Assembly (NCBI RefSeq): GCF_030811715.1
Contig: NZ_JAUSRH010000018.1
Span: 1-64,000 of the forward strand
Direction: 5' to 3'
Length of the DNA: 64,000 nucleotides
From: Sinomonas atrocyanea
GTDB taxonomy: Bacteria > Actinomycetota > Actinomycetes > Actinomycetales > Micrococcaceae
Within the stretch, counting starts at the first letter, position 1. The number at the start of each line of letters is the position of its first letter. The translations under genes were made by a program, and so were the position numbers. This document shows, piece by piece, positions 55,960-57,813 of this stretch. Under the pieces are notes generated by a model that was not told the origin of the DNA, searched no databases, and saw only the letters and a program-made list of their open reading frames with translations.

Positions 55960-55991
55960 GAAGTGCCCCGGACCGGGGTCCGGGGCACTTC
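55960..55991 (-). terminator. terminator of the repeat-peptide gene
   Basis: Perfect 14-bp stem (arms 55960-55973 and 55978-55991, GAAGTGCCCCGGAC against GTCCGGGGCACTTC) with a 4-nt loop, 80 bp past the stop of the 78-aa secreted protein gene. It isolates this gene from the P-type ATPase gene. Confidence 0.75.
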
Positions 55992-56070: not shown

Positions 56071-56307
56071 TCAGAGGCTGCTGCCCTTGGCGGACATCGG
56101 ATCCGGCCAGTTGCCGATGGCAACCGGCGCCTTCATCGGATCGGGCCAGTTGCCGATCGCCGTGGACTTCATCGGGTCCGGCCAGTTGCCGATGGCCGTG
56201 GACTTCATGGGATCGGGCCAGTTGCCGATCGCGGTTGGGGCCCCGGCAACGCCGGACACCGCGAGCGCGCCGCCAAGTGCGAGGGCCGCAATCAGTTTCT
56301 TCAGCAT
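56071..56307 (-). CDS. small secreted protein with four AIGNWPDPM repeats (candidate peptide precursor)
   Basis: A 78-aa protein. Residues 1-23 are a clear Sec signal peptide (MLKKLIAALALGGALAVSG, then VAGA). The rest is almost only a repeat: AIGNWPDPM at residues 26-34, 38-46, 50-58 and 63-71, with K-S-T or K-A-P-V links (period 12, 12, 13), and a short tail SAKGSSL. There is no Cys, no lipobox and no membrane anchor. It looks like a precursor that could release several copies of one short peptide. AAAGGA before the ATG is a good ribosome-binding site and a terminator follows. It diverges from an XRE-TPR regulator across 210 bp with paired inverted repeats. I know no described family with this repeat. 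Confidence 0.85.
   Translation of the reverse strand: MLKKLIAALALGGALAVSGVAGAPTAIGNWPDPMKSTAIGNWPDPMKSTAIGNWPDPMKAPVAIGNWPDPMSAKGSSL
56095..56232 (-). repeat. 36-39 bp tandem repeat coding for AIGNWPDPM units
   Basis: Four direct repeats share GGCCAGTTGCCGAT on the plus strand; synonymous changes (GGATCC/GGATCG/GGGTCC; GATGG/GATCG) show that the peptide is kept while the DNA has drifted, so selection acts on the protein. Confidence 0.85.
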
Positions 56308-56377
56308 GGGCTTGTCCTTTGTATTCAGTCCCGTGGGTCGGCGGGACAGGGTGCGTCTAACGGGGCAGAGCGTGCTT

Positions 56378-56391
56378 TGTCATGATTGACA
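56378..56391. promoter_or_regulatory. operator candidate 1: TGTCA-N4-TGACA
   Basis: A perfect inverted repeat, arms 56378-56382 and 56387-56391, lying over the -35 elements of both divergent promoters. It is a good place for the XRE-TPR regulator to act on both genes. Confidence 0.55.
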
Positions 56392-56420
56392 TTCCCAGTA
56401 AAATATCTCCCACATTGCCT

Positions 56421-56447
56421 GTCAAGGAATACCGTCACCCTCTTGAC
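56421..56447. promoter_or_regulatory. operator candidate 2: GTCAAG-N15-CTTGAC
   Basis: Perfect 6-bp arms at 56421-56426 and 56442-56447, 21 bp centre to centre (two helical turns), just past the inferred start point of the regulator gene. It shares the TCA/TGA core with candidate 1 and could be an autoregulatory site. Confidence 0.5.
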
Positions 56448-56517
56448 GGCCCATGATGGATATTAAAGACAAGCGTGCTCCGGTTCACGAGGTTCCGGGC
56501 CGGGCCAGGAGGTCATC

Positions 56518-57813
56518 GTGGGGAGTGGATTCGGCGAGAAGCTGCGTGCCGAGCGACTGGAGCGCGGACTCACTCAGGCCGAACTCGGCAAGGACCTCTA
56601 CTCGCCCAGCTACATCTCGCTGCTCGAGACCGGGCGACGAGAACCCACCGCGGAAGTGATCCAGGAGCTCGCGCGCAGGCTCCAGCTCGCCCCGAAGGCC
56701 CTCGAGGCCTGGAGCCAGCCCGTGAGCGCCAACGACGCCGAGTACGTGCTCGCCGGGCTCTACGCGCGGCAGGCCTGGGACCTCCGCGACTATGCGCAGG
56801 CGGCCACGCACGCCGCGACAGCGGCGCAGTTCGCCCTCGACGGCAAGAACAACAGCGCGTGGTGGAACATGACCTACATGCAGGCCGAGTGCCTCATGAA
56901 GCAGGGCGAGCTCGCCGAGTGCCAGCGGATCGTCCAGCACCTCCTCGAGCACCCCATCGTCGCCGAGTCCGCCGGCCTCGCGGTGCGCGCGCGCCAGATG
57001 CTGGCGGCGGTGTGCCACGGGCTCGGCCAGCTCAGCACCGCGGTGGAGCACGCGCGCGAGGCCGTCCGGCTCGCCTCGCAGCTTCCCGCCGGATCCACGA
57101 TCTACATCGGCGCCCTGCGCGCGCTCATCGGCGCGCTCGCGGAGAGCGGGAAGCTGGATGAGGCCTGGGAGCAGTGCCGCATCCTCGAGACCCTCATCGA
57201 CGAGGAGTCGATGGGCCAGCTCGCCGGCGAGATCGAGTGGGTGATCGGCAACGTGGCGTTCATGCGCGCCGACTACGCGGAGGGCGTCAAGCACCACGAG
57301 CGGGCCGCCAAGCTCCTCTCCCCCGCCAACGACATCGAGCTCTGGGCCCGCTTCAACAAGGCCTCGGCCGCGGTGCGGCTCTCCGGCGGCATCATCGAGC
57401 CGGAGACGCTCGCGGCGATCGAGCGCGCCGAGCTGGCCCTGAGCATCGTGGGCGGCTCCCGCTCGGAGCAGCTCGAAGTGAGCTTCATCCGCGCCCGGTG
57501 GCTGTACCTCAACGGCCAGATCCCGGAGGCCATCGAGCTCCTGCGCACCATCCATGCCGAGAAGGGAGTGCTCGGCCGCCACACCGCCGGCGAGGTCGCC
57601 CTCCTGTACGGGCGCGCGCTCAAGGCGCTGGGCCGCAACGACGAGGCGCTCGAGCTCCTCGGCGACGCGCGGGAGCAGTTCAGCTACGCGGGGGCCTCGG
57701 ACAAGGTCCAGCAGGTGATGGACGCGATCCTCGAGATCCGGCTCGCCACCCAGCGCGCCGCCAAGGAGGCCTCGGGCGGCGCCAAGGCCCCCCAGAAGGA
57801 CGGCGTCAGCTGA
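56518..57813 (+). CDS. XRE-TPR transcriptional regulator (RNPP-like architecture)
   Basis: A 431-aa protein. Residues 1-60 form an XRE helix-turn-helix (FGEKLRAERLERGLTQAELG, then YSPSYISLLETGRREPTAEVIQELARRL). The remaining about 350 residues are alpha-helical TPR-like repeats (YVLAGLYARQAWDLRDYAQA, AWWNMTYMQAECLMKQGELA, ALYGRALKALGRNDEALELLG) ending in a Lys/Ala tail. An HTH plus a long TPR superhelix is the layout of peptide-sensing regulators (Rgg, PlcR, PrgX) of Firmicutes. It diverges from the repeat-peptide gene. The GTG start has AGGAGG 5 nt upstream. The 3' end overlaps purC by 8 bp (convergent). Alternative: a TPR regulator of unrelated targets. Confidence 0.88.
   Translation: MGSGFGEKLRAERLERGLTQAELGKDLYSPSYISLLETGRREPTAEVIQELARRLQLAPKALEAWSQPVSANDAEYVLAGLYARQAWDLRDYAQAATHAATAAQFALDGKNNSAWWNMTYMQAECLMKQGELAECQRIVQHLLEHPIVAESAGLAVRARQMLAAVCHGLGQLSTAVEHAREAVRLASQLPAGSTIYIGALRALIGALAESGKLDEAWEQCRILETLIDEESMGQLAGEIEWVIGNVAFMRADYAEGVKHHERAAKLLSPANDIELWARFNKASAAVRLSGGIIEPETLAAIERAELALSIVGGSRSEQLEVSFIRARWLYLNGQIPEAIELLRTIHAEKGVLGRHTAGEVALLYGRALKALGRNDEALELLGDAREQFSYAGASDKVQQVMDAILEIRLATQRAAKEASGGAKAPQKDGVS

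Follow-up and report, generated by a model that had tools for sequence, protein, structure and literature searches.

Putatively secreted Trp-Pro peptide precursors encoded beside TPR regulators suggest an undescribed family of peptide signals in Sinomonas and related bacteria

The closest described systems to the locus reported here are those of the RRNPP (or RRNPPA) class, such as PlcR-PapR and NprR-NprX, in which a cytosolic receptor of 250-500 amino acids (aa) with helix-turn-helix (HTH) and tetratricopeptide repeat (TPR) domains is encoded beside a gene for a small propeptide with a secretion signal, and in which the mature peptide is often C-terminal. Three surveys, in the excerpts used here, treat them as Firmicutes systems (PMC9765709, PMC10075063, PMC12700828), and an excerpted 2026 review places them in Bacillus and other Firmicutes (PMC13220807). 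Signalling in Actinobacteria is ascribed in one of these excerpts to enzyme-made small molecules (PMC10075063), and the excerpted text of a review on Actinobacteria quorum sensing deals with cyclic or modified peptides and gamma-butyrolactones and contains no word starting with RNPP (PMC4748050). Here we analysed a 64,000-nucleotide stretch of the genome of Sinomonas atrocyanea, an actinobacterium from soil (NZ_JAUSRH010000018.1, positions 1 to 64,000; hereafter the window), in which a gene for a 78-aa protein with four AIGNWPDPM units lies divergent from the gene of an HTH-TPR regulator. We put at roughly 75% the probability that the small protein serves as a multi-copy pheromone precursor for a dedicated cytosolic receptor encoded by its divergent neighbour, the two forming a pair that is RRNPP-like rather than a proven member of the RRNPP class.

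The precursor gene occupies 56071-56307 on the minus strand. Its product starts with MLKKLIAALALGGALAVSGVAGAPT, ahead of the first AIGNWPDPM unit, and carries at residues ~1-23 (56239-56307, minus strand) a putative Sec-type signal peptide, called by a hydrophobicity rule only, with MLKK, a hydrophobic core and AGA. The four units lie on the same strand at residues 26-34 (56206-56232), 38-46 (56170-56196), 50-58 (56134-56160) and 63-71 (56095-56121), the last being followed by SAKGSSL, so that, unlike in many relatives, it is not the exact C-terminus. All four nine-residue units are identical as protein, and their DNA copies vary at synonymous third positions alone; the signal-like start, the four units and the synonymous drift that an earlier, sequence-only reading had noted were confirmed. 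Tandem Repeats Finder (TRF) placed the array at 56095-56232, with scores of 186 as a 36-bp unit and 216 as a 72-bp unit, the highest among the 19 TRF rows of the window. A PHROGs search returned no match for the precursor.

The divergent regulator (56518-57813, plus strand; GTG start) is 431 aa long and has TPR families above threshold, in line with the 250-500 aa and TPRs given for RRNPP receptors in the excerpt of PMC10075063. An N-terminal HTH, as in RRNPP subfamilies other than Rap, was found within residues 5-64 (56530-56709, plus strand), with both PF13560 (HTH_31) and PF01381 (HTH_3) above threshold, and the TPR family matches together with the structural model place a TPR superhelix, the predicted peptide-binding part, at residues 71-431 (56728-57810, plus strand); the regulator assignment made earlier was upheld by these matches. 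In PHROGs, the regulator matched HTH entries only. The propeptide is small (78 aa) and, by the hydrophobicity rule, bears a secretion signal (MLKK plus hydrophobic core), and its gene is directly adjacent to that of the receptor, divergent and 210 bp apart. In the AlphaFold model of the regulator (pLDDT 91.9), the HTH leads into a long TPR superhelix. Foldseek returned the PlcR-PapR7-DNA complex at rank 2 (E 8e-7), VIA-align matched NprR and Rap at Z about 22, and a family profile matched PlcR across both HTH and TPR (E 4e-11, profile positions 3-208). As modelled, the fold is compatible with the RRNPP class, which is not proof of membership.

Precursor orthologues were present in all 15 Sinomonas genomes searched, as was the regulator (90-98% identity in the other 14). 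The precursors of the genus measure 58-98 aa and hold 57 intact IGNWPDPM units overall, between 1 and 6 per genome, separated by variable spacers (KST, KTT, SAT, KVS, QAPV). In two genomes (loci L006 and L015) a decayed unit stands beside intact ones, and both precursors end exactly with their last intact unit; a third precursor (L013) closes with a stretch that is possibly a decayed unit. Two or more intact units were found in 14 of the 15 genomes, against the 6.7% of atypically large Firmicutes propeptides for which repeats are reported in the excerpt of PMC9765709. The same excerpt describes Firmicutes RRNPP propeptides with up to six peptide copies, so the repeat form itself is not new, and such precursors are known from more than the fungi named at first. 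What appears undescribed is the Actinomycetota host and the shared Trp-Pro core: the mechanism class is known, and in the titles and abstracts listed by the literature searches, which excluded preprints, neither were these peptides described as signals nor RRNPP-type systems described in Actinomycetota. The string GNWPD also occurs in one unrelated influenza paper.

The 210-bp gap between the two genes has a GC content of 54-60%, compared with 65-79% around it. An AT-rich control region with two perfect inverted repeats had been proposed here; the lower GC and the repeats are present, but the region contains 12 inverted-repeat pairs of at least 6 nt, nine of them perfect 6-bp pairs, so two perfect repeats are not beyond chance by themselves. 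A 40-bp element with inverted TTGACA hexamers, TTGACA-N5-TGT-N7-ATTTTAC-N6-TGTCAA (56386-56425, minus strand), proved more distinctive: allowing up to 3 mismatches, it occurs once per genome, at the precursor-regulator locus, in all 15 Sinomonas genomes (14 exact, one with a single mismatch), and a reversed-pattern control gave zero matches in the same genomes. The spacing of the block CTTGACA...ATTTTAC...TGTCAA is nearly gap-free in 43 aligned intergenic regions from several genera, with some substitutions in the more distant ones. Judged from its sequence, the element probably comprises the divergent promoters and the operator of the receptor, and it suggests autoregulation.

To look at the arrays independently of the receptor, the genome collection was scanned for DNA encoding WPD and, 4-14 residues later, GNWPD, and receptor homologues were sought in the same stretches by tblastn (E 1e-8). 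At least 115 stretches were found and, among the matches listed, 47 carried a signal-bearing array, seven a leaderless array and 61 chance or other matches. Among these listed matches, a receptor homologue was present in 47/47 stretches with signal-bearing arrays and in none of the others (0/7 leaderless, 0/61 remaining, 0/68 together); the named hosts of the signal-bearing arrays were Arthrobacter, Pseudarthrobacter, Sinomonas and Tersicoccus. Co-occurrence of the repeat protein with this regulator family, which the sequence-only reading had put forward as its test, was thus seen both throughout the genus and in this wider set. A set of 71 multi-copy genes was chosen for at least two GNWPDP copies, so the invariance of these six residues is by construction, whereas their varying spacers, copy numbers and codons are not. 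Fifty-eight of these precursors end exactly in GNWPDPx, unlike the window precursor with its final SAKGSSL, and 98 distinct spacers were counted among 160, with the core retained.

The leaderless arrays bear on an alternative in which the receptor would bind Trp-Pro units of unexported precursor, or of the leaderless arrays themselves, and monitor export or self-production instead of cell density. Such arrays do exist in Arthrobacter-type genomes, as nine distinct open reading frames (ORFs; L082:1489-1698, minus strand; L157:1036-1188, plus strand; L158:1146-1331, minus strand; L184, L211, L220, L224, L236 and L261) that start MSTH or MSIH, have by eye an AGGAG-type site upstream and contain 2-4 units, mostly GNWPDPM; some add IGWWPD, IGWWPH or IGWWPN, the core type of receptors without HTH, so that GNWPDPM is mixed with GWWP[DHN]. 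However, no receptor was found in the leaderless stretches tested, as opposed to every listed signal-bearing one, and single-copy forms place the core at the exact C-terminus, like exported RRNPP pheromones. We consider intracellular sensing of this kind unlikely. The leaderless arrays may possibly be a second source of both signals, GNWPDPM and GWWP-type. They recall the leaderless communication peptides (LCPs) of RopB in Firmicutes in being signal-less peptide ORFs, but an LCP, in the excerpt of PMC10518010, has an ultrasmall ORF that specifies a single mature peptide and lies close to its receptor, whereas the Arthrobacter arrays are multi-unit and the receptor is absent from the stretch. 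A MarR-type gene was present in three of the four leaderless-array loci scanned.

Of 295 Micrococcaceae genomes, 129 contained a regulator homologue at E 1e-60 or better, and the regions surveyed in this family were chosen from them by hand and non-exhaustively. The 116 receptor-first loci compared are counted as distinct proteins after merging copies identical over the compared stretch and leaving those kept from precursor-first loci uncounted. An ORF was termed signal-like by a hydrophobicity rule of our own rather than by SignalP, and the cut-offs varied a little from script to script. By this measure, a divergent signal-like ORF with Trp-Pro (WP) was present in 61/116 receptor-first loci, absent from the other 55, and present in 106/161 over all loci. 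WP occurred in 62 of 73 divergent signal-like ORFs, versus 1 of 21 downstream of receptors (64 loci testable there). Upstream co-directional signal-like ORFs carried it in 5 of 17 cases; this set is not a clean control, since L327, L329 and L330 among the five probably represent precursors in their own right. On these sequence comparisons, the pairing of precursor and receptor is well supported in Micrococcaceae and less firmly so beyond. The usual divergent orientation differs from that of Bacillales RRNPP systems, in which the propeptide lies immediately downstream of the receptor (excerpt of PMC9765709).

One branch of receptors lacks the HTH, for example L143:1535-2575 (plus strand, 347 aa, TPR helices from residue 13), and likewise L150, L191, L199 and others. 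Every HTH-less receptor longer than 300 aa had a divergent WP precursor (19/19 in the receptor-first survey, 25/25 over all loci), and in 19 of the 25 pairs the core is the precursor C-terminus (..SSIGWWPN*, ..RVNNWPY*, ..GIWPY*, ..GLWPY*, ..KMGNWPH*, ..VGYWPF*, ..LVNWWPH*). At L140, L191 and L199, two HTH-less receptors are neighbours and their precursors differ (DDWPH and GNWP[DG]). With their HTH-less TPR receptors, single C-terminal cores (..IGWWPN*) and two-gene layout, these pairs resemble Rap-Phr, and Rap structures were among the structural matches of the HTH-less receptor; their divergent gene order is unlike that of Rap-Phr. Rap proteins carry an extra N-terminal region, which seems absent here, as the HTH-less model begins with a helix array at residue 13. 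The Paenibacillus polymyxa peptide-receptor sets, as excerpted from PMC7425212, are similar in having several pairs in one clade, but belong to Firmicutes.

The unit is not peculiar to Sinomonas: members of the wider family have xxWP in common, and GNWPDPM is the form that this core takes in Sinomonas and Arthrobacter. Beside the various receptor clades we found GNWPD, GDWPH, GWWPN*, NNWPY* and GSWPT cores, and [IV]xWP in probable Streptomycetaceae, in 1-8 copies, and many precursors place the WP core at the exact C-terminus. Arthrobacter-type cores are GNWPDPM and GNWPDPA; other clades have GNWPDP[SF], FVGNWPDAV, ATGNWPNV, GIWPNS, PGIWPDS, WIWPDS and VGEWPH, as well as VGDWPH, repeated six to eight times, and PAVGNWPDRF, repeated five to eight times (L139, L147). 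Placed on the receptor tree, eight core labels typed by hand required 23 changes, compared with at least 32 in 300 shuffles, a test that ignores relatedness.

A signalling function of the pair is likely. By analogy with RRNPP systems, the precursor would be exported through its signal peptide by Sec, after which proteases would cut the spacers and free a single peptide, built on (A)IGNWPDPM, in several copies; with multiple units in each precursor, every transcript would yield more peptide. An oligopeptide importer or permease would return the peptide to the cell, where it would bind the concave TPR groove of the receptor and alter HTH-DNA binding at the control region between the two genes and presumably at other sites. 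Export, cleavage, uptake, binding, the direction of regulation and the target genes are all aspects that we infer from the RRNPP class. The window genome contains four SBP_bac_5 matches.

Several observations weigh against a precursor-receptor pair of this type. Eukaryotic LGN TPR domains outscored PlcR, NprR and Rap against the regulator model, and designed pentatricopeptide repeat (PPR) proteins ranked above PlcR in the family profile search, so that fold and profile prove little; many TPR proteins share these fold matches. When searched alone, the window regulator gave no PDB match at E 0.001. The profile built from 27 HTH-less and four HTH-TPR receptors matched TPR proteins only. A regulon search with the full 40-bp element gave no second target in the 15 Sinomonas genomes; since the element is restricted there to the precursor-regulator locus, no further target was identified. 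In the receptor-first scan, 52 of 94 HTH-TPR loci had no divergent precursor, some of them with candidates elsewhere: in such cases the precursor may have been lost, be unlinked or have been missed, or the proteins may never have been peptide receptors. Three incomplete or split receptors (L046, L152, L310), none with a precursor, were counted neither among these 94 nor among the 19 HTH-less ones. A clade of 16 tree rows in one genus (g24) has no detectable adjacent precursor (L113, L115-L120, L123, L125-L129, L131, L133, L135 and L292, with L117 omitted from the tree as redundant), although the g24 genomes L110 and L114 do have one; the receptors of this clade are candidates for listening to signals made elsewhere. 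Within the window genome itself, the paralogue on contig C3 has no divergent precursor, and neither has a split paralogue on C4. Finally, core identity would track receptor clades in any case if the linked genes were simply inherited together.

The split paralogue (G000:C4:98062-99251; L046, L057) shares 69-70% identity with the window regulator and lies in two reading frames, its fragments corresponding to residues 1-46 and 44-397. It has no neighbouring WP precursor and is probably a frameshifted receptor.

Outside Micrococcaceae, homologues at E 1e-40 were found in one other family among 297 genomes of the order (three genomes, four loci), where two of the four loci had candidates: three GGSWPTSQDPTV-type units (L297) and a protein ending in SDTWPA* (L298). 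Among 394 genomes of the class, three further families had homologues at E 1e-30. The receptor of family f37 matched 36 plasmid records, 35 from Streptomyces and one from Kitasatospora, and because of these named plasmids the family is most likely Streptomycetaceae. Its core is [IV]xWP, found as DIEWP in two copies, DIGWP in two and DISWP in three, or as a single ..DIDWP*, ..EIGWP*, ..LIDWP* or ..MIDWP*. A signal-bearing candidate was present in six of its ten receptor-first loci (L322, L323, L327, L329, L330, L331), with a WP-ending ORF without clear signal in L324-L326 and none in L328. From the 36 plasmid matches, ten loci (L347-L356) were chosen by hand for spread; seven had a signal-bearing candidate, six with at least two WP units and L351 with one WP and one WS, the candidate of L348 was weak, and L349 and L350 had none. 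Cores in these ten loci include IDWP in three copies, DIGWP in three, IGWP in six and VEWP pairs.

These distant loci are less uniform: candidates may run in the direction of the receptor gene, follow it or stand 1-2.3 kb from it, and some lack a clear signal; on the plasmids, candidates lie 1-2.3 kb upstream of the receptor in L353, L355 and L356 and downstream in L351 and L354. Under a looser criterion applied to whole loci (two or more WP, or one close to the C-terminus, on any strand), the two Streptomycetaceae sets (42 and 62 kb) each scored in six of ten loci, and the Micrococcaceae receptor loci (327 kb) in 60 of 96. By chance, the same criterion picked 4 ORFs besides the real precursor in the 64-kb window, 3 in 90 kb of other actinobacterial loci and 7 in 209 kb of mixed loci. 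At these rates, ~1 to 4 of the ten loci in each Streptomycetaceae set may score randomly, so single-copy candidates there are weaker evidence than repeats.

The plasmid receptors have ATP-grasp, cytochrome P450, acyl-carrier and Streptomyces antibiotic regulatory protein (SARP) genes as neighbours, with non-ribosomal peptide synthetase (NRPS) and ketosynthase genes at L348, the locus of the weakest candidate. It is possible that these loci are signal-controlled biosynthetic clusters.

Taken together, the pairs in related bacteria, probably including Streptomyces, suggest an undescribed family of bacterial peptide signals built around a Trp-Pro core. We see about even odds for a broader proposal, namely that Actinomycetota have their own large RRNPP-like family with PlcR-like and Rap-like receptors, in which the Trp-Pro core is fixed and neighbouring residues set specificity, Streptomyces plasmid pairs switch on biosynthetic genes, and leaderless mixed arrays feed two receptor classes. 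If true, the Firmicutes-only picture of RRNPP signalling would change, with Arthrobacter, Sinomonas, Tersicoccus and probably Streptomyces having encoded peptide signals that TPR receptors read inside the cell. Simple synthetic peptides would become testable triggers of behaviour, and in Streptomyces perhaps of biosynthetic clusters that are silent. The evolution of signal specificity could also be studied well in these pairs, which are natural and numerous and combine a fixed Trp-Pro core with flanks that vary.

The biosynthetic genes beside several Streptomyces plasmid receptors (NRPS, ketosynthase, acyl carrier protein, ATP-grasp), like the multi-core form of the precursor, would also fit a ribosomally synthesised and post-translationally modified peptide (RiPP) or a secreted antimicrobial peptide whose expression is controlled by the regulator. 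We regard this as improbable: the Pfam-scanned flanks of the window (P-type ATPase, asparaginase, purC) contain no modification or immunity gene, and the ten ORFs scanned in six other loci are purC, ABC transporter parts, a phosphoesterase and a phosphatase, with no modification enzyme or immunity gene among them. ABC transporters stand beside some precursors (L189, L190, L177, L230) but not all, core types track receptor clades, and full-length HTH-less receptors are always paired. A secreted cell-wall or matrix repeat protein, incidentally regulated by its divergent neighbour, would account for the signal-like start, the repetitive build and the varying copy number, but is likewise improbable given the very small size (58-98 aa in the genus), the sufficiency of a single copy in many relatives, the variation of spacers (98 distinct of 160) while the core is kept, and the linkage to a regulator of peptide-receptor type.

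We also considered a mobile-element origin, which was rejected, as the window receptor had no match in plasmids (E 1e-15) or phages (E 1e-8). A phage link of the tandem pattern was likewise rejected: seven viral-contig matches had no receptor by tblastn and no secreted array on inspection. In the window and in four Arthrobacter loci (L177, L189, L190, L215), purC lies 3' of the receptor in convergent orientation, which we take as plain synteny. The neighbour on the precursor side varies, being a P-type ATPase gene in the window, ABC-transporter genes in L177, L189, L190 and Sinomonas L230, and a phosphoesterase gene in L215. Between the precursor and the P-type ATPase gene of the window, a terminator scan called none; a strong palindrome (AAGTGCCCCGGACC/GGTCCGGGGCACTT), read by eye near 55960-55990, perhaps separates the two transcripts.

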